A stretch of 64,000 nucleotides of DNA. Origin: Clostridiales bacterium. Lineage in GTDB: Bacteria; Bacillota; Clostridia; Lachnospirales; Lachnospiraceae. The DNA lies in contig JAJQCD010000008.1 of the NCBI GenBank assembly GCA_021202925.1, positions 1 through 64,000 on the forward strand, in the 5' to 3' direction. Below the pieces are notes generated by a model. That model searched no databases. It was given only the letters and a program-made list of their open reading frames with translations, and was not told where the DNA came from. Shown in pieces: positions 6,841 through 64,000 of the stretch; the first letter of the stretch is position 1, and each line of letters begins with the position of its first letter. Both the position numbers and the translations under genes were made by a program.

Positions 6841-8145
6841 TCATCGGCGCCGGGCGCTCATACTATAGTAAACTGCCAGAATGGCAGTCACAATCAGGTA
6901 AAACCATGTCGTCGTGTTGCTGAACCAGGTGGTAAAAAAAGACAGCATCAGATATACCGCTACCTGCGCGTACAGAAGATACCCCATCGGATTGCGCATT
7001 TCCCGCAGCTTGATAACCAGCAAATACGACACAAATCCCAGAACCGCTGAAAACAGCAGAACCCCGATCCAGCCAAAATCGTAATAGGCGTCATAAAACA
7101 TCGTCAGCGTCGTCAATTCTGCCTTATCCACATAAATCGGGAAATTGATCAGCTGCGGAAAAAAGAACTTCAGGCCGGTCAGCGCCCACAGTGGGAACAG
7201 CCCTTTCAGTCCCAGGCTGTGCGAACCGAGCGCCTCCACCAGACAGTTGAAATTATCATAGTTATTGGCAATATACATGTATGGCTGGGAAAAAACAATT
7301 GGCAACTGCGCGTACTTCATCTCGAAAATCCCATTCAGATATTCCACATCATGGCTTCGAGCCACAGTCAGCAACAGATACACCGGAACCACAATCACCA
7401 GAAGTCCCACCAGGTAAAGCGGCTGAAATGATTTCTGAAGAGAGATGCAGGTGATTGCCGCCAGAACAACCGCAAACACAAACTGATACCGTGACACGCA
7501 CAGAATGGGAATGACCAGTGCGATCAGCGACAGAAGCCCCACAGCAATCAGTCTTCCCTCTCCGCCCCTTCCCTTCGAAGTATGGAAATACAGGACGGCC
7601 AGAGAAGGAACCAGGACACATGAGACCGTCACATAATGGACTCCCGTCAGATGAAACTCTGAATAAGCATGCGGCACTCCCCGTACCAGAAACGGCACAT
7701 ATCCAAGCACAAACGCCTCCAGCAGAAATGCAGCGAGCGAAACGACGGTAAGTACACAGATCATCCGAAAGACCGGAACACTGTCTGCCTCAAAGCTTCT
7801 CCATCTTCCATATCCATTGCTCCCGTCACCATAAACACGGCTCAGGATTTCAAATACAATCCAGAATCCGACATAGGCCAGGAAAAAACAGATCCAGGTC
7901 ATCAGCGTCCAGTCCGTCTGAAGATGGCTCAGCTTCAGACAGGCCAGCCCCTCTCCACCAACCCAGAACAGAGAAAAAATGCCTCGCAGATGAATCGGAT
8001 TTTTTGTTCTGCGCCAATCCGAACCATACAGCCAGACCGCCGCCATAAGCAATGCCAGCCCGGACAGCCAGTCATACTCCCATTTCGCCAACAGGAAGCT
8101 TGCCAGATAACAGATCACGTATACAATCATATACATCCCATCCAT
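6841..8145 (-). CDS. O-antigen polymerase-like polytopic membrane protein
   Basis: About 434 residues with roughly ten to twelve transmembrane segments and one longer extracytoplasmic loop (about 235-320, including QPYMYIANNYDNFNCLVEAL). This is the layout of Wzy-like oligosaccharide repeat-unit polymerases. No glycosyltransferase or flippase genes surround it, so its glycan substrate is unknown. The start is uncertain: candidate ATGs are at 8145, 8136 and 8130, all with weak ribosome sites. A further in-frame extension to 8190 would be encoded by a long inverted repeat and is rejected. It follows ptsI by about 80 bp on the same strand. Confidence 0.65.
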   Translation of the reverse strand: MDGMYMIVYVICYLASFLLAKWEYDWLSGLALLMAAVWLYGSDWRRTKNPIHLRGIFSLFWVGGEGLACLKLSHLQTDWTLMTWICFFLAYVGFWIVFEILSRVYGDGSNGYGRWRSFEADSVPVFRMICVLTVVSLAAFLLEAFVLGYVPFLVRGVPHAYSEFHLTGVHYVTVSCVLVPSLAVLYFHTSKGRGGEGRLIAVGLLSLIALVIPILCVSRYQFVFAVVLAAITCISLQKSFQPLYLVGLLVIVVPVYLLLTVARSHDVEYLNGIFEMKYAQLPIVFSQPYMYIANNYDNFNCLVEALGSHSLGLKGLFPLWALTGLKFFFPQLINFPIYVDKAELTTLTMFYDAYYDFGWIGVLLFSAVLGFVSYLLVIKLREMRNPMGYLLYAQVAVYLMLSFFTTWFSNTTTWFYLIVTAILAVYYSMSARRR

Positions 8146-8160
8146 ATTGATTATCGCAGA

Positions 8161-8191
8161 GATGCGCGTCATGCTCCGCATGACGCGCATC
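8161..8191. repeat. perfect 14-bp inverted repeat with 3-base loop
   Basis: GATGCGCGTCATGC, then TCC, then its exact reverse complement. It lies between ptsI and the polymerase-like gene. There is no T-run directly after it on either strand, so it is not a classical intrinsic terminator. It could be a processing or pause hairpin, or a weak transcription barrier. Confidence 0.6.
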
Positions 8192-8225
8192 CCGCAGCAC
8201 TCTTAAAAAAGCACCCCGTCTCGTT

Positions 8226-9944
8226 TTATGCAAGACTCTCCATATATTCCTTCATATAAGCTTCCACTTCTTTCGTGGTCACAAAACTCATGGCTTTCTC
8301 CGCAACCGCCTGCAGCTCCGCCTTGCTGGAATTGCAGATAATCTTCCTGGACTGAAGAATCGCAGAAGCACTCATGGAAAACTCATTCAGGCCAAACGCC
8401 AGCAGCAACGGAATCATCATCGGATCACTCGCAGCCTCTCCGCACATACCAACCATGATCCCCGCTTCATTTGCGCAACGGATGATGCGCTGAATGCTCC
8501 TCAATACAGCCGGATTGAAGGTGGAATACAGATAGGAAATTCTCTCATTTCCACGGTCGCAGGACATCGTATACTGCGTCAGATCGTTGGTTCCGATGCT
8601 GAAGAAATCAACCTCCTTCGCAAATACATCCGCCATCAGAGACGCAGCAGCCGTCTCCACCATGATACCGACCTGAATATCCTTGTTGTAAGGAATATCC
8701 TTGCGATCCAGCTCTGCCTTTGTCTCTTCAATAAGAGCCTTCGCCTCACGAATTTCATCAATGCAGGTCACCATCGGAATCATGATGCGGATATTGCCAT
8801 ACGCGCTCGCACGCAACAGCGCACGCAGCTGCGGACGATAGATATCATCCTTGCGGTCCAGGCAAAGGCGAATGGCACGGTAGCCCAGGAATGGATTCTC
8901 ATCCTTCGTCAGTCCCATATACGGAATCTCCTTGTCGCCACCGATATCCAGCGTCCGGATGATGACCGGTTTACCCGCCAGCTTCTCAGCGACTGCCTTA
9001 TATGCCTCAAACTGCTCGTCCTCCGTCGGCATGGCGCTCCGATCCATGAACAGGAACTCCGTGCGGAACAGGCCGACACCCTCACCGTCATACTCAATTA
9101 CCTTATCCACATCCTCCGGCTTACCGATGTTCGCAACAATCTCAACCTGTACGCCATCCTGCGTGATCGAAGGTTTGCCCACATACTTCTGCAGCTCCTC
9201 CTTCTCCTTCAGATAGGCAGCACGCTTCTCTGCATACGCGTTCGCTGTTGCCTCGTCCGGATTCACATAAACTTCTCCGGCATTTCCATCCACCACAACC
9301 GAATCGCCGTTCTTTACATTCTTCATAAAACCGGTCACTGCAACAACCGCCGGAATCTCCATCGCGCGGGCAAGAATCGCACTGTGCGAAGTCTTGCCGC
9401 CCAGCTCTGTCACAATACCGATAATGTTCTTTGGATTGATTCCTGCCGTCATGGACGGAGTCAGATCCTTCGCCACCAGGATGGTTCCCTCCGGAAGAGA
9501 AGCAATGTCCACGGTCTCGGCACCAAGCAGCACCCGCTGCATTCTGGTCTTAATATCCCGCATATCCGTCGCGCGCTGCTGCATCATCTCACTGTCCATC
9601 CCGGCAAAGACATCCGCATACATATTGCAAACCTGCTCAATCGCATATTCACTGCAGATGCTATCGTTCTTAACCGTATTCTCAATCTCGCCGGTCAGCA
9701 TCGGATCCATCAAAAGCATCATATGCCCCTGCATGATCTCCGCTTCTTTTTCTCCGACGTTCTCCGCCAGATCCTGAGCAAGCTTCTCCGTATCGCTGAT
9801 CGTCTTCTCCAACGCCCCCTTAAAGCGCTCCACCTCAGCTTCGACATCCGTCACAGCCCGCCGTTCAATCACCAGTTCCGTCTCTTCCACAATCACGGCT
9901 TTACCAATACCGATTCCGGCAGAAGCGTTTGTTCCCTTAAACAT
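8226..9944 (-). CDS. ptsI: phosphoenolpyruvate-protein phosphotransferase, Enzyme I of the PTS
   Basis: Cytosolic first enzyme of the sugar phosphotransferase system. It takes phosphate from phosphoenolpyruvate and passes it to HPr. At 572 residues it matches the family. The active His lies in GGKTSHSAILARA (about residue 187). The PEP-binding C-terminal barrel shows GVGLFRTEFLFMDR, GYRAIRLCLDR, SIGTNDLTQY and the Cys of GMCGEAASDP. The ATG at 9944 has GAGGAGG 7 bases upstream. It lies about 110 bp downstream of ptsH and completes the ptsHI pair. Confidence 0.97.
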   Translation of the reverse strand: MFKGTNASAGIGIGKAVIVEETELVIERRAVTDVEAEVERFKGALEKTISDTEKLAQDLAENVGEKEAEIMQGHMMLLMDPMLTGEIENTVKNDSICSEYAIEQVCNMYADVFAGMDSEMMQQRATDMRDIKTRMQRVLLGAETVDIASLPEGTILVAKDLTPSMTAGINPKNIIGIVTELGGKTSHSAILARAMEIPAVVAVTGFMKNVKNGDSVVVDGNAGEVYVNPDEATANAYAEKRAAYLKEKEELQKYVGKPSITQDGVQVEIVANIGKPEDVDKVIEYDGEGVGLFRTEFLFMDRSAMPTEDEQFEAYKAVAEKLAGKPVIIRTLDIGGDKEIPYMGLTKDENPFLGYRAIRLCLDRKDDIYRPQLRALLRASAYGNIRIMIPMVTCIDEIREAKALIEETKAELDRKDIPYNKDIQVGIMVETAAASLMADVFAKEVDFFSIGTNDLTQYTMSCDRGNERISYLYSTFNPAVLRSIQRIIRCANEAGIMVGMCGEAASDPMMIPLLLAFGLNEFSMSASAILQSRKIICNSSKAELQAVAEKAMSFVTTKEVEAYMKEYMESLA

Positions 9945-10055
9945 AAAAATACCTCCTCATTAATTATATATGTGAACTCCACTGCACGGCTCGGTACTCT
10001 CTCCCCTGTCCACGCCGCAGAATTTTCACACCACGTTGCGCAAAGTTCCCTGCGC

Positions 10056-10319
10056 TTATTCGCCAAGCCCGCTGTTTACCAGATTCACCATGGCGTCCAT
10101 TGCCTCCTGCTCATCTTCCCCATCACACACGAACTCGATCTCGTCGCCACATTTCACACAGGCCCCCAGAACACTCAACACACTCTTTGCGTTGGTCTCC
10201 GTATGGCCAAACCGGAATTTAACCGATGATTTGTACTTGATTGCTTCGTTGCAAAACATCCCCGTAGGACGCAGATGCAATCCCGACACATTTTTTATCA
10301 AAACCTTCTGTGTAATCAC
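10056..10319 (-). CDS. ptsH: phosphocarrier protein HPr
   Basis: An 87-residue HPr. Starting from the GTG at 10317-10319, the active-site His in SGLHLRPTG falls exactly at position 15 and the regulatory Ser in NAKSVLSV exactly at position 46, as in canonical HPr. This decides the start over an ATG at 10346 that would overlap cdaR. The gene begins one base after the cdaR stop, so translation is probably coupled. The site reads HLRP rather than the more usual HARP. Ser46 implies possible control by HPr kinase, as in other Bacillota. Confidence 0.93.
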   Translation of the reverse strand: MITQKVLIKNVSGLHLRPTGMFCNEAIKYKSSVKFRFGHTETNAKSVLSVLGACVKCGDEIEFVCDGEDEQEAMDAMVNLVNSGLGE

Positions 10320-10320
10320 A

Positions 10321-11745
10321 TTATCCCTCTTTCTGCTGTTCATCATTCCCGTTGCTTTCCGGTTCCACCGATTCCTCTTCCGTCACAGGCTCTTCCGTCT
10401 CATGTATTTCTTCGCCGGAAGCGCTCTCCTCACCGGGAGCACGCTCTTCCCCGGAAACGCTCTCTTCACTCACGTCAGCCTCTGCATCCGGCGATCCGGC
10501 AACAATGACACCGCTCTTAGTCGTCACAATCAGAGTGAAACCTGTATAAGAAACCACATCATAATTCCAGCTGTCTGTAAATCGCAAAGACCCCGTATAA
10601 GTTCCCGTTGTCAGGTTCGTTACGTTAATCGTCGCTCCCAGATCAGAAGCATCCAGATCCTGGATTTCATTCTCCAGTCCCCGAATCACAACACTGATCT
10701 GTGCCGGTACAAACTCATAATTCAGATCTTCCGATGCATTCTGAAGTTCGATCTCATCACCTGTCAGCAAAACAGTCCGTTCCAACAGCTGCTCAATGTG
10801 TAACGTAATCTCTGCCTGCCCGATTTCGGTAGATGCAAGCGTCACGCCCTCCGGCAGATAATCGGCCAGCTCCAGTGTAATGACCTGATCTCCCGTTGCA
10901 CCGGTAATATCCAGTTCCGTAGACGGAATCTCAATTTTGTTGATGGAAGCCAGCGTTTCTTCCGCTCCGGTAATCATAACCGTGCGGATGCTGATCTCAC
11001 TTCCGGTATACTGATAACCGGAAGCCACCGTTCCTGTTACCTCATACTCGACCGGAACCATCTTTACCTTATTCACCGACAGATAATACTGAATTTCTTC
11101 CGTATTTACCGTGATGCGATCACTGAGAGTAATCTGATTGCCGTTCGCGTCATAGAAAATCGGAGCCGTCACGCCGGATATCCCGCTGTCCAGATTGTCC
11201 TTACTCAGGCTGACTCCCACATAACTGATCAGCCCCACCTGTGAAGTCGGTCCCTTCACCGTCACCTCAGCCGGTTCCAGGGAAATACCGGTCAGAACAT
11301 AACCATCGCTCTCCGATCCCGTCGTCGAAATCCGCAGTTCAAATGTCTTCTCCTGCAAATCCTCCGTCTCCACACGGACAACGCCCGGCTTTGCCTCTGC
11401 GCTGACCAGCAGATCCTTATTGTTGACGATCTCTACCGTAACCGGCACAGAACCGGTCACCGAATACAGATTCGCCAGATCAACGGTCGCCTTAAAATCG
11501 GACGCCTTGATCAGATACGAATCCCGGGTATGCACCTGATAGGAAACCGTAGTGGTTCCCTTTCCGCTGATCTCGTAAGTCTTGCCCGCGCCCGTCAGAA
11601 TCTGCTCATTCAGGATCTCCAGCGTCACTTCCTTGCTGGCAGTAATCACCGGATTCGAGACATTGACCACAACAAGCCACACAAAAAATGCCAAAAAAAT
11701 CGAAAGAATCTTCAAGCTGAGATTATTTAACAGTTTTTCTTTCAT
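10321..11745 (-). CDS. cdaR: YbbR-domain protein, CdaA regulator CdaR
   Basis: A 474-residue protein with an N-terminal membrane anchor (about 12-30, LSIFLAFFVWLVVVNVSNP) and then three to four YbbR repeats of beta-rich sequence outside the membrane. Each repeat has the pattern of an EILN/RIST-like strand, a GxSLEPAEVTVKGP-type segment and a DLxxGxxxxTV end. A Glu/Ser-rich C-terminal tail of about 50 residues follows. CdaR proteins bind and modulate the diadenylate cyclase CdaA. The gene overlaps cdaA by 23 bp and is followed directly by ptsH. Confidence 0.88.
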   Translation of the reverse strand: MKEKLLNNLSLKILSIFLAFFVWLVVVNVSNPVITASKEVTLEILNEQILTGAGKTYEISGKGTTTVSYQVHTRDSYLIKASDFKATVDLANLYSVTGSVPVTVEIVNNKDLLVSAEAKPGVVRVETEDLQEKTFELRISTTGSESDGYVLTGISLEPAEVTVKGPTSQVGLISYVGVSLSKDNLDSGISGVTAPIFYDANGNQITLSDRITVNTEEIQYYLSVNKVKMVPVEYEVTGTVASGYQYTGSEISIRTVMITGAEETLASINKIEIPSTELDITGATGDQVITLELADYLPEGVTLASTEIGQAEITLHIEQLLERTVLLTGDEIELQNASEDLNYEFVPAQISVVIRGLENEIQDLDASDLGATINVTNLTTGTYTGSLRFTDSWNYDVVSYTGFTLIVTTKSGVIVAGSPDAEADVSEESVSGEERAPGEESASGEEIHETEEPVTEEESVEPESNGNDEQQKEG

Positions 11746-52076: not shown

Positions 52077-52676
52077 TTATCCTTCTCTCCTTCCGCGGCA
52101 GGCCGACGCCTCCCGCATGCCAACCGCCTCCCGCAGGAGACGAAATACTCCGGCCGCCTCCAACGCCCGCGCAATCGAATAAAACAACAGCGAATTGATC
52201 GGCCACATCACCAGGTTCTTCATCACACGCATGGGCAAGAGCGCCATAAATCCCTTCCCATACAGAATACTCAGACAGAACGTCGTCATCAGCATATTGC
52301 AGATCACACTGACCATCAGCTCCGCCATCAGAATGCGCCGGATGGTCAGCTTCCTGCGATAATAAAAGCAGCCGTAAATCAGGCCACCCACCATTGGCAC
52401 AAGGGTCAGCGGCGGAAAATATCCTCCCGTCGGTTTGATCAGATATTTCAGAATATCCAGCGCACCTCCAAAGATACAGCCAACCGCCGGTCCAAACAGG
52501 TAATACACGAATTGATTTGAAATCATGGAAAATCCAATCTTGATATAATCCCCGACAGCGATCGTAAAATAGCCCAGAACCACAGATATCGCCGCAAACA
52601 TGGCACAGACCGTGATTGTCCGGGTATTACTGAATTCGCGACAGGAATCCGAGAATAAAGCAATCGTTTTTCTCAT
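52077..52676 (-). CDS. folT: folate-family ECF transporter S component
   Basis: A 199-residue integral membrane protein with five to six helices. It has an FSNTRTITVCAMFAAISVVLGYF-type start (given in part), then IKIGFSMISNQFVYYLFGPAVG and PTGGYFPPLTLVPMVGGLIYG. It binds folate and works with a shared ECF energising module not seen here. The ATG at 52676 has AAGGAGG about 8 bases upstream, and that site is held by a hairpin below a THF riboswitch, which strongly supports the folate assignment. Confidence 0.88.
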   Translation of the reverse strand: MRKTIALFSDSCREFSNTRTITVCAMFAAISVVLGYFTIAVGDYIKIGFSMISNQFVYYLFGPAVGCIFGGALDILKYLIKPTGGYFPPLTLVPMVGGLIYGCFYYRRKLTIRRILMAELMVSVICNMLMTTFCLSILYGKGFMALLPMRVMKNLVMWPINSLLFYSIARALEAAGVFRLLREAVGMREASACRGRREG

Positions 52677-52686
52677 AAAAAATGAC

Positions 52687-52718
52687 CTCCTTTGCAGAAT
52701 TCTCGAACCACAAAGGAG
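52687..52718 (-). promoter_or_regulatory. Shine-Dalgarno-sequestering hairpin of folT
   Basis: On the minus strand CTCCTTTG (complement of 52711-52718) pairs perfectly with CAAAGGAG (52687-52694), the latter containing the folT ribosome binding site. With the THF riboswitch upstream this is the likely off-switch: a translational control rather than a transcription terminator. Confidence 0.7.
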
Positions 52719-52741
52719 ATACGGCGCAAGGCCTCTATTCT

Positions 52742-52851
52742 CTTCGCAGCGGGATGCGGAATATGCACCGCAAGGAACTCTCCGGCTCCTTTTCGTCCTG
52801 CCGACAACTCCCTGTCCGGCTGGCACTTAACGCGCACACTCCTACTCTGCT
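52742..52851 (-). promoter_or_regulatory. tetrahydrofolate (THF) riboswitch
   Basis: On the minus strand the RNA starts GCAGAGUAGGAG, has the conserved CGCGUUAAGUGCC (complement of 52822-52834), a stem with GGACAGGGAGUUGUC, GGACGAAAAGGAGCC, and closes with UGCGGUGCAUAUUCCGCAU and CCGCUGCGAAG, whose CUGC pairs with GCAG at the start. Element order and conserved GAGUAG and GUUAAGUG blocks match the THF-I class found before folT. It lies directly before the sequestering hairpin. Confidence 0.88.
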
Positions 52852-58962: not shown

Positions 58963-58991
58963 TTGCACTTGGGGAATGATTCGGTTAGAAT
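58963..58991 (+). promoter_or_regulatory. aroE promoter
   Basis: TTGCAC (58963-58968), 17 bases, TAGAAT (58986-58991), about 65 bp before the aroE start. It is back to back with the trp promoter, 30 bp away. Confidence 0.65.
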
Positions 58992-59055
58992 AGCAATAGC
59001 GATTGCGGACGGCACGCCTGTCCCGAACCATCGAGGAAAAGAAAGGGGATTATCA

Positions 59056-59922
59056 ATGGAAATCAATGGACATACACAAATGCTGTGTCTGATCGGCAGC
59101 CCGGTCGGACACTCCGGTTCACCCGCCATGTACAATTACAGCTTCAACCGGCTCGGACTGGACTACGCTTATCTGGCCTTCGATATCAAGGAAGAGGAGA
59201 CCGCCGAAGCCATCCGGGCTCTGCGTCTGCTCAACGTCCGGGGCTTTAATATCACCATGCCCTGCAAGACTGCGACACTGGCCTGCTGCGACCGTCTCTC
59301 CAAAGCCGCGGAACTCATCGGCGCGGTGAATACCGTTGTAAATGAAGATGGAAAGCTGATCGGACACAATACAGACGGTCTCGGATGGGTGCGCAACTGC
59401 CGTGAGCACGGCTTCACGATTGAAGGAAAGAAGATGACCATCGCCGGCTCCGGCGGCGCGGCCACAGCGATCGAGATCACTGCCGCTCTGCAGGGTCTGA
59501 AGGAGATGTCCATCTTCGCCTTAAAGGATTCCTTCTTTGCCAATGCACAGAATACGGTAGAGAAAATCCGCGCCAACGTCCCCGGCTGCACTGTCAATCT
59601 CTACGACCTGGCCGACAAAGACACCTTTTACCGCGAAATCGCGGACAGCGATATCTTCACCAATGCCACCCGCGTAGGCATGAAACCGATGGACGACCAG
59701 AGCCTCATCGAAGATCCAGGCGCCTTCCGCAAAGATCTGACAATCTCCGACGTCGTCTACAACCCCCGCGAGACGAAGCTGATCGCCGAGGCGGCCGCCG
59801 CCGGCTGCCGGACCATCCCCGGAATCGGCATGCTTCTCTGGCAGGGCGCGGAGGCATTCCACCTCTACACCGGAATGGAGATGCCAACGGAAGAGGTCCG
59901 GGAAAAATATTTCGCAGAATAA
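59056..59922 (+). CDS. aroE: shikimate/quinate dehydrogenase, YdiB-like AroE family
   Basis: A 288-residue AroE-family enzyme reducing 3-dehydroshikimate (or 3-dehydroquinate). It has SPVGHSGSPAMYN (substrate Ser pair), NITMPCKTA with the catalytic Lys, NTDGLGW with the catalytic Asp, the nucleotide loop AGSGGAATAIEI, and GIGMLLWQGAEAF. The sequence resembles YdiB more than AroE in the MKPMDDQSLI and VVYNPRETKLI regions. The segment after the Gly loop reads FALKD, where YdiB has FNRRD, so the Arg residues that hold the NADP phosphate are mostly lost and NAD use is likely. The ATG at 59056 follows an AAAGGGG site. Confidence 0.85.
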   Translation: MEINGHTQMLCLIGSPVGHSGSPAMYNYSFNRLGLDYAYLAFDIKEEETAEAIRALRLLNVRGFNITMPCKTATLACCDRLSKAAELIGAVNTVVNEDGKLIGHNTDGLGWVRNCREHGFTIEGKKMTIAGSGGAATAIEITAALQGLKEMSIFALKDSFFANAQNTVEKIRANVPGCTVNLYDLADKDTFYREIADSDIFTNATRVGMKPMDDQSLIEDPGAFRKDLTISDVVYNPRETKLIAEAAAAGCRTIPGIGMLLWQGAEAFHLYTGMEMPTEEVREKYFAE

Positions 59923-59934
59923 ATAACAGACAGG

Positions 59935-59970
59935 AAAAGCGGTCTGCTCCGATGCATGCAGCCGCTTTTT
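59935..59970. terminator. terminator between aroE and the LysR gene
   Basis: GCGG-CTGC (from 59939, one bulged base) pairs with GCAG-CCGC (to 59965), loop 10 bases, followed on the plus strand by TTTTT. It serves aroE, and by symmetry the convergent LysR gene ending at 59985. Confidence 0.65.
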
Positions 59971-59984
59971 CCATGTCAGCCACC

Positions 59985-60878
59985 CTATTCAAACCGGTAG
60001 CGCGACACATATCTGGTGAAAGCCCGCACCGACGGATATTCCACCAGTTCCTTTAACGTCACATAATAAATCGGCCGGTAGATGACTTCCTTTAACGGCA
60101 CAATCGCATATGCATCTGTCTTCAGTGCCAGGGCAATCGACCGGGAGGAAAATCCGATGCCAAGATTCTGGGATGCCAGCTGAATCACGACATCCGACTG
60201 GCTGCTTTCGCAAAGAATGTTCGGTGTCAGGAAATGACGTGCAAAAATCCCCTCTACTTCCCGACGAAACGCAGAAGCCTTTGCCGGCATGATAATGTTC
60301 TCATTCTGCAAATCCTCGGTCTGAAGAACTTCTTTGCGGGAAAGAGGATTCTGTGTGGAAACAACGGCCACATAATAGTCATCCTGAAGTTTGCGATAAT
60401 ACAATTCCTCATCCTTTGCCAGCCGGTTCTCCTCTCCGATGACAAAAGCGCCGTGAATCATGCAGTTTGAGAGAAGCTTCAGCAGATTCGCACTGCCATC
60501 CACGGTCAGCGAATACTTGATGTTCGGATAGAGACGATGATAGCTTGCCAGAAGTTCAGGCAGATGCAGGTATCCGCCAACCCACAACATTCCGATTTTC
60601 AACGTCCCGGCCTGGAGCAGGCTGTGCTTCTGCATCAGATCCGACAGCTGATCGACGCCGCCGATAATCCGTTGTGCGTGCTGTGCAAACTGCTCTCCCG
60701 CATTTGTGAGAGACACCGACTTGGAATGCCGCACCAGCAGCTGGATTCCCAGCTCTTCCTCTAATTTAATGATCTGCTGGGAAAGCGACGGCTGAGAGAT
60801 ATAAAGGCTTTTGGCGGCCGCCGTAATATTCCCCAGCCGCGCGATTTCCAGAAAATAACGTAATTGTTGTATTTGCAT
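59985..60878 (-). CDS. LysR family transcriptional regulator
   Basis: A 297-residue LysR-type regulator: winged helix-turn-helix at the N-terminus (QQLRYFLEIARLGNITAAAKSL, YISQPSLSQQIIKLEEELG) and the two-lobed effector domain (about 90-297). The ATG at 60878 has GGGAGGGG upstream; an 18-codon extension is rejected. It is divergent from the transporter operon and convergent with aroE, so it probably controls the transporter, FAD oxidoreductase and chorismate-mutase-like genes, maybe in response to their substrate. Confidence 0.88.
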   Translation of the reverse strand: MQIQQLRYFLEIARLGNITAAAKSLYISQPSLSQQIIKLEEELGIQLLVRHSKSVSLTNAGEQFAQHAQRIIGGVDQLSDLMQKHSLLQAGTLKIGMLWVGGYLHLPELLASYHRLYPNIKYSLTVDGSANLLKLLSNCMIHGAFVIGEENRLAKDEELYYRKLQDDYYVAVVSTQNPLSRKEVLQTEDLQNENIIMPAKASAFRREVEGIFARHFLTPNILCESSQSDVVIQLASQNLGIGFSSRSIALALKTDAYAIVPLKEVIYRPIYYVTLKELVEYPSVRAFTRYVSRYRFE

Positions 60879-60968
60879 AAATACAATTTCCCCTCCCAAA
60901 TTTTTCTGAGCAATGATTGTGAATTTAGCCAAAAATTTCTCGTGAAATAGTTTTTACCTATCGATTTT

Positions 60969-60997
60969 ATAATATTACAGTATTTTACAAATGTCAA
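60969..60997 (-). promoter_or_regulatory. LysR gene promoter
   Basis: Minus-strand TTGACA (60992-60997), 17 bases, TATTAT (60969-60974). The opposite strand has a TATAAT box (60968-60973) without a good -35 element, which would fit an activator-dependent promoter for the transporter operon. Confidence 0.6.
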
Positions 60998-61122
60998 GAA
61001 AACGGATAAGCTTACCTTAACAAACAAGTCATAACCCATGTACGAGAGGATGAAACGGATCGAAAACCGGCAAAGGTGACTGACACTCCGATTCGTACAT
61101 AAAAAACGAAAGGAGATTGATT

Positions 61123-62586
61123 ATGGCTAAGACAAATGTAAAGGATACCGTATTTCTTGTTCTGGCGATCGCGATTATGATTGGCTCCAGACTGATCCCA
61201 CCCTTCGGAGGACTTTCCTCAGAAGCAATCGGCGTACTGGGCGTCTTCTTCGGCTCCCTGCTCATGTGGATCACGATATCCATCGACTGGCCCAGCATGA
61301 TTACCCTGTTGGCTCTGGGATTCATTCCCACCTTCGGTTTTTCCAAGACCTTTTCCGGCGCCTTTGGAAATTCCACCGTTGCTTTTCTGATTTTCACCTT
61401 CATGCTGGTCTACCCGCTTTCCAAGACCAATTTTGTACGGCGGTGTACCGTATCTTTTATCACCAACAAAATTGCCCGCAAGGGACCATGGTATTTTGTC
61501 TGTTTCCTCTTCGCGGCTGTCACCTTTATGGGCCTGTTCGTATCTCCCTCCGTCCTCTTCGTCGCCTTCATGCCCTTCCTTGAGGACATCTTCTCTGTCC
61601 TGGAAGTGAAAAAAGGCGGTAAGACCGGTAACATGATCATGATGGGAACTGCGATCTGCATCAGCCTTTCCTCCGGCATGACCGCCATCGGCCATGTATG
61701 GCCGACTATGGCAATCGGTTATTACACTGCCGCAACCGGAAACGACGTCAATCAGTTCCAGTTCATGGCAATGGGTATCCCGACCGGCATCCTGCTGATC
61801 ATCCTGCTCATTCTCGCATTCAAATTCATTTACCGTCCGGATGACATCCATGACATTCACCCGGAAAAAGCAATGGGTCTTCGTGGCACCGTTCCGGCTG
61901 CCGATCTGAAGGAAAAAATCGTCCTCGCAACCATGGGTCTCACCGTTCTCCTGTGGGTCGGCCCGAGCCTGATCAAAGGCATTCTTCCAGATGTTTATAC
62001 CACAATCAACAGCTGGTCCACCGCCATGCCGCCGCTTCTTGGCTGCATTATCCTCTTCATCACCAAAGTTGACGGTGAGCGTCTCCTGAGTTTCAAGGAA
62101 GGAACGACTAAGGGTATTCTCTGGGGCAGCATCCTCATGACTGGTGCCGCTACCTGGCTTGGCTCCTGCCTGACCAACGCAGATATCGGCATCAGCGACT
62201 GGCTGACCGCCTCCCTGTCTCCGCTTACCGCAGCCATGCCGGTCACCGGTATGATCCTGTTCTTCATGACCTGGGCAATCATTGAGACCAATTTCTCTTC
62301 CAATATCGTGACAACAACCGTTGTCAGTGCAGTTGCCCTCTCCGTTCTGACTGCCCTCCCGGCAGGCAGCGTCAGTGTCGGCTCCGTTGTATGTATGGTT
62401 GGCATCTGCGCGGCAATCTGCAGCATGACTCCGGCCGGCCAGAGTACCATCAACACCGTAGCCATCGGTTCCGGGTGGACAAACACAAAATCCATGTTTA
62501 TCTGGGGCGGTATTTTTGCCCTGATGGGCATCGTTGTACTGACCTTTATCACCTATCCGCTTGGAGCGCTCATTCTCGGTTACTAA
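61123..62586 (+). CDS. SLC13/DASS family anion:sodium symporter
   Basis: A 487-residue polytopic transporter with about eleven to twelve helices in an inverted repeat. DASS-like features: early GVLGVFFGSLLMWITISIDWPSM, the FGNSTVAFLIFTFMLVYPL helix, SLSSGMTAIGHVWPTMAIGY, and near the C-terminus the second repeat with ETNFSSNIVTTTVV and MTPAGQSTINTVAIGSGW, where Ser/Asn/Thr residues line the substrate and Na+ sites. Family members move di- and tricarboxylates, sulfate or similar anions. The ATG at 61123 has AAAGGAG 7 bases upstream. It is the first gene of the terminal operon. Confidence 0.85.
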   Translation: MAKTNVKDTVFLVLAIAIMIGSRLIPPFGGLSSEAIGVLGVFFGSLLMWITISIDWPSMITLLALGFIPTFGFSKTFSGAFGNSTVAFLIFTFMLVYPLSKTNFVRRCTVSFITNKIARKGPWYFVCFLFAAVTFMGLFVSPSVLFVAFMPFLEDIFSVLEVKKGGKTGNMIMMGTAICISLSSGMTAIGHVWPTMAIGYYTAATGNDVNQFQFMAMGIPTGILLIILLILAFKFIYRPDDIHDIHPEKAMGLRGTVPAADLKEKIVLATMGLTVLLWVGPSLIKGILPDVYTTINSWSTAMPPLLGCIILFITKVDGERLLSFKEGTTKGILWGSILMTGAATWLGSCLTNADIGISDWLTASLSPLTAAMPVTGMILFFMTWAIIETNFSSNIVTTTVVSAVALSVLTALPAGSVSVGSVVCMVGICAAICSMTPAGQSTINTVAIGSGWTNTKSMFIWGGIFALMGIVVLTFITYPLGALILGY

Positions 62587-62619
62587 ACCAGTGTCGGACA
62601 CACAGACAGGAGGATCAAT

Positions 62620-63879
62620 ATGAATAGAACTTATGAATATGATGTAGTTGTTGTCGGCGGAGGAACGGCCGGCGTGTCAGCGGCGGTCGGCGCCAGACGA
62701 AGCGGCGCCAGAACTCTTTTGATCGAACGCAACGCCTATCTTGGCGGCGAAGCGACCCACTCCGGGGTCGGCGCTTTCTGCGGATTCTTCTCCTGCGGGG
62801 AAAATCCGGTGCAGGTTGTTGCCGGTGTCGGCGAGATGGTTCTGGAGGAAATGAAAAAACTTGGCCCAACCATCGATGTCATCATTTCTGCCGTTGGAAA
62901 TAAAAACATCAATTTTCAGCCGGAGTATCTGAAATGCGCCATGGAAAATCTTCTGGATAAGGAGGACGTAACCTGTCTCCTGCACGCCAGAGTCATTGAC
63001 GCCAACGTAGAAAACGGAACGATTCAGTCTATCCTCTGTGTCGATGACGAAGGGATGTTCACCGTCCGGGCGGCCACCTTTGTGGATACCTCTGGTGACG
63101 CGAACCTGGCGCACATGGCAGGTGCCAGCACAAACTGGGGCGATGCGGATGGTAATGTCCAGGCAGCCACCCTCCCCTTCCGCTTAAGCGGCGTCGACAC
63201 CTCTCAGGATATGACCCCGGCCGCAGTTGAACGCGCCGTAAAAAAGGCCAAAGAGTCCGGCATTCCGAATCTGACCAAAGAAAAAGGATTCATTCTGAAA
63301 AAAATCGACTCCAATATTGTGTCCGTGCTGCTTCCCAGTGTAATCCCACAGGGAATGACGGCAGAGGATCTGACCGAAATGGAAAAGAATACCAGGAAAC
63401 AGGTGCTTTACTATGTGCAGGCCCTGAAAACCTACATGCCCGGTATGGAAAACTGTGAACTGGCCATGATCGGTCCATCCATTGGTTTCCGTGAAACGAG
63501 AAGACTCGTCGGGCGTGAGACCATCACCGTAGACGACGTCCTCAACCGACGCAAACGTGACGACAGTGTCGCCCGTGGTGGCTGGAAACCGGAAATTCAC
63601 AAGGACGTCAACAAGATGGGAACCTATCTGGAAGTGACAGGAGGCAGTTATTTCGACATTCCTCTTGGCGCACTGCAGTCAGCGGATATCGATAACCTCT
63701 ATGGCGCCGGTCGGATGGTCTCTTCCGACGAAGCCGCCTTCGCTGCTGTCCGCGTCATGGGCACATGCTTCGCCACCGGCCATGCGGCCGGAGTCGCCGC
63801 CGCATGCCAGGCTCTCAACGGAACTGCTGACATTGAACGGGTACGGGCGGAACTGCTCCGCCAGAACGCCCTGGTCTGA
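62620..63879 (+). CDS. FAD-dependent oxidoreductase (FAD_oxidored type)
   Basis: A 419-residue flavoprotein. The dinucleotide fold is VVVVGGGTAGVSAAVGARRSG with the acidic ribose site LIERNAYLGGEATHSGVGAF. A middle domain contains TFVDTSGDANLAHMAGA, and the C-terminus carries LGALQSADIDNLYGAGRM and RVMGTCFATGHAAGVAAA, closing the FAD site. It lacks a visible Fe-S cluster or a signal peptide. Homologues oxidise or reduce diverse acids. The ATG has AGGAGG 6 bases upstream. It lies 33 bp after the transporter. Confidence 0.85.
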   Translation: MNRTYEYDVVVVGGGTAGVSAAVGARRSGARTLLIERNAYLGGEATHSGVGAFCGFFSCGENPVQVVAGVGEMVLEEMKKLGPTIDVIISAVGNKNINFQPEYLKCAMENLLDKEDVTCLLHARVIDANVENGTIQSILCVDDEGMFTVRAATFVDTSGDANLAHMAGASTNWGDADGNVQAATLPFRLSGVDTSQDMTPAAVERAVKKAKESGIPNLTKEKGFILKKIDSNIVSVLLPSVIPQGMTAEDLTEMEKNTRKQVLYYVQALKTYMPGMENCELAMIGPSIGFRETRRLVGRETITVDDVLNRRKRDDSVARGGWKPEIHKDVNKMGTYLEVTGGSYFDIPLGALQSADIDNLYGAGRMVSSDEAAFAAVRVMGTCFATGHAAGVAAACQALNGTADIERVRAELLRQNALV

Positions 63880-63894
63880 GAAAGGAGACAAAAC

Positions 63895-64000
63895 ATGACA
63901 CTGCCTGAAGTACGAGTCATCATTGACGAAGTAGACGCACAGATCAAACCCCTGTTTCTGAAACGAATGGAGTGCGCAACCTGTGTAGCCGAAGCAAAAG
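63895..64000 (+). CDS. chorismate mutase-like protein (AroQ class), N-terminal part
   Basis: The first 35 residues read MTLPEVRVIIDEVDAQIKPL, then FLKRMECATCVAEAK before the window edge. This matches the first helix of the AroQ chorismate mutase fold, with its IDxxDxxIxxLFxxRM pattern and the Arg and Lys of the active site. The ATG at 63895 has AAGGAG about 8 bases upstream and follows the flavoprotein by 15 bp. Whether it converts chorismate or a related substrate, or is fused to a second domain, cannot be told from this part. Confidence 0.72.
   Translation, partial: MTLPEVRVIIDEVDAQIKPLFLKRMECATCVAEAK

Follow-up and report, generated by a model that had tools for sequence, protein, structure and literature searches.

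A putative LysR-controlled acid uptake-and-redox cassette with a host-dependent chorismate mutase in gut bacteria

Introduction

Which acid might be imported and converted by a small operon near the trp genes of a Clostridiales bacterium (Lachnospiraceae), and why does this operon carry a chorismate mutase? The question was raised by the right end of a 64,000-nucleotide stretch, hereafter the window (assembly GCA_021202925.1, contig JAJQCD010000008.1, positions 1 to 64,000). Here, the gene for a LysR-type regulator is divergent from genes encoding a DASS/SLC13-type carrier (DASS1), a flavin adenine dinucleotide (FAD)-dependent flavoprotein and an AroQ-type chorismate mutase. An earlier note, made from the sequence alone, had joined these four genes and a YdiB-like dehydrogenase gene into one cluster for the uptake and conversion of an acid such as quinate or shikimate.

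All five open frames were found where the note had placed them, except that the ATG chosen here for the dehydrogenase (59056) was later than the proposed start at 58963. The gaps between the DASS1 and flavoprotein genes (33 bp, 62587–62619) and between the flavoprotein and mutase genes (15 bp, 63880–63894) were as described, and the operon was indeed divergent from the regulator, with the genes for LysR, the carrier, the flavoprotein and the AroQ protein sharing one promoter region. The contig (C28) belongs to a 3.17 Mb draft genome and ends at 68120. Past position 64000, it carried the end of the mutase gene, followed by the gene for an OYE-family enzyme and that for another DASS-like carrier (DASS2).

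The conserved unit

The conserved unit is a LysR gene divergent from the genes for DASS1, the flavoprotein (PF12831) and a chorismate mutase, in this order, which is narrower than the cluster proposed before. The species genome collection was scanned once with the flavoprotein and yielded 49 loci. Sixteen of them (L036–L050 and L052), in which almost the entire flavoprotein or a large part of it aligned with an identity of 60% or more, were treated as related loci. Their neighbors were counted within flanks of at most 8 kb, shorter where the contig was short. DASS1 was directly upstream of the flavoprotein in 14 of the 16 (not in L036 and L050), a LysR gene was present in 14 (not in L036 and L041), and an AroQ-type gene was located downstream in 12 (not in L036, L041, L048, and L050). 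A shikimate dehydrogenase gene lay beside the cassette only in L036, DASS2 occurred only in L049, and the OYE gene was found in none of the 16 loci. Thus, the regulator, carrier, flavoprotein and AroQ protein of the proposed cluster form a unit, of which the dehydrogenase is probably not a member. Compared with the window operon, the cluster had one gene too many on its left and two too few on its right.

The same gene order was recovered in 14 loci when the window and L182 were counted and the near-copies L085 and L183 were excluded. By our count these loci spanned seven flanks: L043–L047 had a common flank, L039, L042, and L052 had another, and L038 was too short for judgment. This indicated that the grouping is beyond chance. 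The order was changed in L184, where a LysR gene was followed by the flavoprotein, mutase and DASS1 genes. No description of this cassette was found in the open PubMed Central literature, as far as the search results showed.

L062 was left out of the 16 loci since it retains only the last 75 flavoprotein residues. In this Enterocloster metagenome-assembled genome (MAG; 7838–10012), the end of the LysR gene was fused to the last 75 flavoprotein codons and DASS1 was gone, seemingly by deletion, while the mutase gene and a shortened DASS2 gene were retained and overlapped by ATGA.

Chorismate mutases in the operon

The assignment of the last window gene to the AroQ fold was upheld. The protein matched CM_2 with 55.5 bits (cut-off 27). 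Residues R7, R24, K35, R47, E48, S78, and Q82 did not vary among the 13 orthologues aligned, and by eye the window protein had the same ones. We take the catalytic residues of AroQ to be, in E. coli numbering, R11, R28, K39, R51, E52, S84, and Q88, plus D48. The C-terminal half was predicted to be an ACT-like alpha/beta domain (mean predicted local distance difference test score 94.3 in the Claveliimonas bilis orthologue), and weak fold matches included ACT-bearing proteins. The protein thus resembled the AroQ class (CM_2, PF01817) with ACT in its CM_2 match, its seven kept catalytic residues and its ACT-like half. However, it fell below the NCBIfam equivalog cut-offs, the Asp48 position was not kept, and no prephenate dehydratase domain lay between the mutase and ACT parts. 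It is also an operon-borne extra copy, since a second CM_2 gene, a 390-aa frame resembling P-protein, was present elsewhere in the genome. The operon mutase is predicted to turn chorismate into prephenate.

CM-ACT proteins (chorismate mutase plus ACT) without other domains were common in Lachnospiraceae away from the flavoprotein (L010–L024 and L086–L102). Five longer forms (284–299 aa) had an extra middle part and unrelated surroundings.

In the Negativicutes, an AroH-type mutase gene was found directly after an MFS carrier gene in three of six flavoprotein loci. All three operon copies matched CM_1 with 138–147 bits (cut-off 27), that of L077 also matched TIGR01796 (139.7 vs. 82 bits), and the GTxE glutamate was kept in all seven aligned AroH proteins, of which three were the operon copies. 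The three genomes with an operon AroH each had two AroH genes; two flavoprotein-MFS genomes without it had one each, and the DASS-type Negativicutes genome had none. The mutase of L184 was another CM-ACT protein, with 35% identity to that of the window and a CM_2 match of 57.1 bits. Mutases therefore seem to have been recruited at least twice, as an AroQ type with ACT in Lachnospiraceae and as the unrelated AroH fold in Negativicutes. On the flavoprotein tree, the mutase label required at least six changes, five of them forced by well-supported branches (shuffle mean 12).

Distribution among hosts

Surveys of the family and the phylum were made with the flavoprotein at E up to 1e-80. The flavoprotein occurred in 6 of 397 family genomes, five times within the cassette and once (L185) in another cluster. 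It was found in 2 of 398 phylum genomes, namely the genome studied here and one with an Opp-type locus, and the other member of the genus searched had no orthologue. In the class of a Selenomonadales genome, the Negativicutes, 6 of 300 genomes carried it, five with a flavoprotein-MFS layout and one with flavoprotein-DASS1 (38% identical). The nine flavoprotein-bearing genomes among 185 Synergistota all had DASS1 adjoining the flavoprotein (next but one in L162). A LysR gene was seen in six of these nine loci, one contig being cut before it, and none of the nine cassettes had a mutase. In L162 (7873–11178), DASS1 was followed by a tandem pair of distinct flavoproteins, and the one nearer to DASS1 (9157–10416) grouped with the L185 type.

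Chorismate synthase was detected in none of the nine flavoprotein-bearing Synergistota genomes and in all 14 control genomes. The nine genomes are partly MAGs of unstated completeness; nine absences out of nine are hard to attribute to assembly gaps. This indicated that neither the flavoprotein nor the carrier depends on chorismate made by the host. Genome G612 likewise had flavoprotein-DASS1 (47 and 39% identical) without a mutase, and no chorismate synthase was found in it. Genomes G634, G895, and G635 did have the enzyme, as did that of the window. No operon mutase was seen outside hosts that were tested as, or are likely to be, chorismate makers, and some such hosts had none. Since it is absent from the cassettes of hosts without chorismate synthase, the mutase is a host-dependent addition to the cassette.

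The window DASS1 shared 79–81% identity with its Synergistota counterparts (76% with one truncated gene), and the flavoprotein shared 61–65%. A tree of 36 flavoproteins was rooted with two rows from carbohydrate clusters. The Synergistota rows joined one Lachnospiraceae row, L050 (100/100), within a Lachnospiraceae-type clade (100/97), and the MFS-type Negativicutes formed a separate clade. From the patchy presence, the two identities and the tree, the cassette is read as having moved horizontally between gut bacteria, the mutase having been gained and lost separately.

Carriers

DASS1 was above the Pfam cut-offs of CitMHS and Na_sulph_symp and missed that of the dass model (TIGR00785, 198.6 bits; DASS1 80.3, DASS2 74.7), and it is therefore named DASS-type only. 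Filing it under the sodium-coupled anion symporters of TIGR00785 was rejected on this score and because its first SNT motif was changed. Two SNT motifs are, we assume, the carboxylate-binding motifs of DASS carriers. DASS1 aligned weakly (32.9 bits) over its whole length with 5uld, a NadC-family carrier that we take to be VcINDY. It shares a second SNT-like motif with this family, present in the window protein as SSN-VTT, and differs in the first, replaced by SPS. Among 24 aligned DASS1 rows, two of them near-copies, the first motif was SPS in 22, SPV in one and not reached in one, and the second was SSN in all 24. With one of the two motifs changed, a simple C4-dicarboxylate is an improbable substrate, and the SPS/SSN pattern would probably fit an acid bound through a single carboxylate and further polar groups.

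DASS2 had PQP at the first motif and SNT at the second, and gave no match to a solved structure at E up to 1. In L049, its gene was 3 bp from the mutase gene. Relatives of the flavoprotein used other carriers, i.e., MFS, tripartite or Opp types. The nearest model for the MFS protein of L170 was D-galactonate and the third was an aromatic-acid/H+ symporter, all below cut-off.

Flavoprotein and other shikimate-pathway neighbors

The flavoprotein matched FAD_oxidored (PF12831) over its full length (residues 8–413; 325.8 bits, cut-off 27). Its fold was one common among FAD proteins, for which no solved structure stood out as a specific relative, and its best solved sequence matches were flavocytochrome c fumarate reductases in the N-terminal FAD domain only. 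It is like other PF12831 proteins in this full-length match; unlike them, it forms with its orthologues a set at least about 42% identical, apart from the two outgroup rows from carbohydrate clusters.

The link to the shikimate pathway made in the earlier note was strengthened, as orthologues elsewhere were found near genes for AroH, AroA, AroD or a shikimate-kinase-like protein. AroA was next but one downstream of the flavoprotein in L051 (371.5 vs. 287.25 bits). AroD lay three genes away in L170, past a thioesterase-type gene and a LysR gene (199.5 vs. 139.3 bits). In L036, a shikimate-kinase-like gene converged on the flavoprotein (156.6 bits, below the cut-off of 204). The non-homologous mutases and these other neighbors lend independent support to the idea of a hydroaromatic acid.

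In L185 (1727–9473), a 43% identical relative of the flavoprotein was accompanied by genes for TctCBA, a cupin and a racemase of the LarA type (575.9 vs. 460 bits), and by a galactarate-dehydratase-like gene that was split. It is perhaps a different acid pathway that uses the same flavoprotein family.

Regulatory region

The intergenic region between the LysR gene and the operon contained the inverted repeat ATAG-N7-CTAT, a putative LysR box (Table 1). Of the 16 intergenic regions of Lachnospiraceae type that were examined, some of them from close relatives, 11 had this strict box and the remaining five had the relaxed form ATAA-N7-CTAT. The chance of a strict box was 0.3–1.2% per region in mono-nucleotide shuffles. 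The strict form was absent from the five Synergistota regions and four MFS-type Negativicutes regions tested, and L172 had it. The only other strict copy in the window lay at 859–873, distant from the cassette.

Proposed function and alternatives

We tentatively favor a LysR-controlled cassette for the uptake and redox conversion of an acid, with a polyhydroxylated hydroaromatic acid of the quinate/shikimate class as the preferred substrate. The substrate, the redox direction and a catabolic or respiratory role are what we infer. The acid would be sensed by LysR, which would open the divergent promoter at the ATAG-N7-CTAT box, and it would be imported by DASS1 or, in relatives, by an MFS or tripartite carrier, as judged from their families. 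A cytoplasmic PF12831 flavoprotein would then carry out a two-electron redox step on the imported acid. Many chorismate-making hosts add a second chorismate mutase, predicted from its family and residues to convert chorismate into prephenate. In hosts with a shikimate pathway, the product might be channeled into it; elsewhere the acid might be only an electron donor or acceptor. Two further genes are present in the window operon, those for DASS2 and for an enone reductase of the OYE family. A bolder and rather doubtful extension is that the cassette, being mobile, couples a hydroaromatic acid from the environment to prephenate metabolism, with a new flavoprotein activity on a shikimate-family acid and with two unrelated mutase folds drafted independently in chorismate-making hosts.

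Several observations weigh against the quinate/shikimate class. The AroA, AroD and AroK-like links were each seen at a single locus, the last under its cut-off, and L036 is a MAG contig whose shikimate dehydrogenase gene is truncated by the contig end. The motif argument depends on the weak alignment of DASS1 with 5uld, and a 39% identical DASS1 relative (L133) had SPS first and SSH second. PF12831 relatives less than 40% identical were located near glycoside hydrolase genes (L134, L135, L137, and L138; L136 resembled L135 by eye, and L139 and L140 gave no clear assignment), and these neighbors, together with the context of L185, indicated that the family is not tied to hydroaromatics. In the Synergistota, a hydroaromatic product could not feed amino acid synthesis, since no chorismate synthase was found. 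Also, G895 and G635 make chorismate, yet their operons have no mutase, and those of L168 and L170 likewise lack it. To these points must be added the Tct and MmgE/PrpD genes, which bear more directly on the alternative that the cassette is a di/tricarboxylate module.

On that alternative, which we regard as unlikely, a saturated or unsaturated tri- or dicarboxylate such as aconitate or tricarballylate would be imported by DASS1 or by an MFS or tripartite carrier, the flavoprotein would interconvert its C=C and C–C forms like a soluble fumarate-reductase relative, and the extra mutase would be a reserve in case the acid inhibits the native enzyme. The flavocytochrome c fumarate reductase matches and the CitMHS/Na_sulph_symp type of the carrier agree with it, as do TctC-TctB-TctA in place of DASS1 in L050 (sister to the Synergistota rows), TctC and TctA genes adjoining the cassette in L166, and Pfam-confirmed MmgE/PrpD genes after the flavoprotein in L051 and L186; it is also compatible with hosts without chorismate. 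However, one of the two carboxylate motifs of DASS1 is changed, the fumarate-reductase similarity covers at most residues 6–85 and is generic for FAD proteins, inhibition of the mutase by such acids is conjecture, and AroA, AroD, AroH, and AroQ near the gene would have no direct reason. The mutase might instead be a passenger, an extra enzyme supplying aromatic amino acid synthesis whose gene came to lie next to an acid-uptake operon unrelated to it and was then spread along with that operon. CM-ACT proteins do stand alone in other Lachnospiraceae, and the mutase is missing from L036, L050, and all Synergistota cassettes. This is nevertheless quite unlikely, as AroH and AroQ types were separately recruited to the same flavoprotein, another CM-ACT protein was recruited in L184 with a changed gene order, and the label requires at least six gains or losses on the tree. 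Least probable in our opinion is that prephenate itself, or a similar cyclohexadienyl acid, is the flavoprotein substrate. The cassette mutase would produce it in the cell, or DASS1 would import it in hosts without chorismate, and DASS2 would move the product. The two unrelated mutase folds beside one flavoprotein argue for it, and so do the mutase and DASS2 genes, translationally coupled in L062 and nearly contiguous in L049. However, all nine Synergistota hosts would need outside prephenate, of which we know no source, and two of five flavoprotein-MFS operons have no mutase.

If the acid does belong to the quinate/shikimate class, the cassette offers candidate genes for the uptake and conversion of plant acids in gut Clostridia, Negativicutes, and Synergistota, and its patchy presence makes the uptake idea testable. 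Whatever the acid, the repeated drafting of non-homologous mutases to one flavoprotein offers an unusual hint at the reaction, for which no known counterpart was found, and the absence of the mutase in hosts without chorismate synthase is part of the same hint.

Flanking genes and other features

On the left, the cassette is preceded by the trp genes and then the dehydrogenase gene (Table 1).

Table 1. Genes and putative regulatory site at the right end of the window and beyond it on the same contig.
Feature	Position	Strand	Families and remarks
YdiB/AroE-type shikimate dehydrogenase, 288 aa	59056..59922	+	Shikimate_dh_N, SDH_C; neighbor, probably housekeeping, outside the cassette
LysR-type regulator, 297 aa	59985..60878	-	LysR family; divergent from the operon
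Putative LysR box ATAG-N7-CTAT, ATAGTTTTTACCTAT	60947..60961	.	Divergent intergenic region
DASS1, divergent DASS/SLC13-type carrier, 487 aa	61123..62586	+	CitMHS, Na_sulph_symp
Flavoprotein, 419 aa	62620..63879	+	FAD_oxidored PF12831
AroQ-type chorismate mutase fused to ACT-like domain, 186 aa	63895..64455	+	CM_2; first 106 bases inside the window (63895..64000), remainder on the contig
OYE/BaiCD-like enzyme, 671 aa	64551-66566	+	Outside the window, same contig
DASS2, second DASS-like carrier	66604-68007	+	Outside the window; contig stops 113 bases later

The dehydrogenase was above the cut-off of subfamily PRK12548 (443.5 vs. 432 bits) and matched YdiB-type structures with about 262–269 bits and 3tnl with 316 bits. 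It resembles the YdiB quinate/shikimate dehydrogenase in these respects and is unlike it in its position outside the conserved cassette and in its cofactor loop, ALKD instead of the NRRD/NRKD of YdiB-type structures, which hints at an altered cofactor preference. Its membership in the cassette was rejected, since only one of the 16 related loci had it next to the cassette and the scan of the 64-kb window gave no strict LysR box before it. With this frequency, a quinate/shikimate catabolic pathway with the dehydrogenase in the conserved unit was not recovered. The genome had two genes with a shikimate-dehydrogenase N-domain, the window copy and one on contig C31, and it encoded chorismate synthase, so one of the two should serve biosynthesis. 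The window copy is probably a housekeeping AroE, which its trp neighbor, its place outside the cassette, the missing LysR box and the existence of only two copies make likelier.

The second dehydrogenase gene (L005, contig C31, 7158–10834) immediately precedes an apparent full set of genes for a tripartite ATP-independent periplasmic (TRAP) transporter (DctQ, DctM, and DctP, by eye). This locus is a separate candidate for hydroaromatic acid uptake.

The OYE-family enzyme had Oxidored_FMN and Pyr_redox_2 domains, a layout shared with enone reductases of the BaiCD/FadH/NCR type; its best NCBIfam match was BaiCD and its best solved match was NCR. It was rejected as a BaiCD bile-acid reductase (NF041087, 443 vs. 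825 bits), and its gene is missing from the flanks scanned in the 16 related loci.

Elsewhere in the window, a tetrahydrofolate (THF) riboswitch (RF01831, 86.6 bits) was detected at 52745–52851 on the minus strand, ahead of a membrane protein gene (52077–52826) that presumably encodes a folate carrier subunit of the energy-coupling factor (ECF) type.

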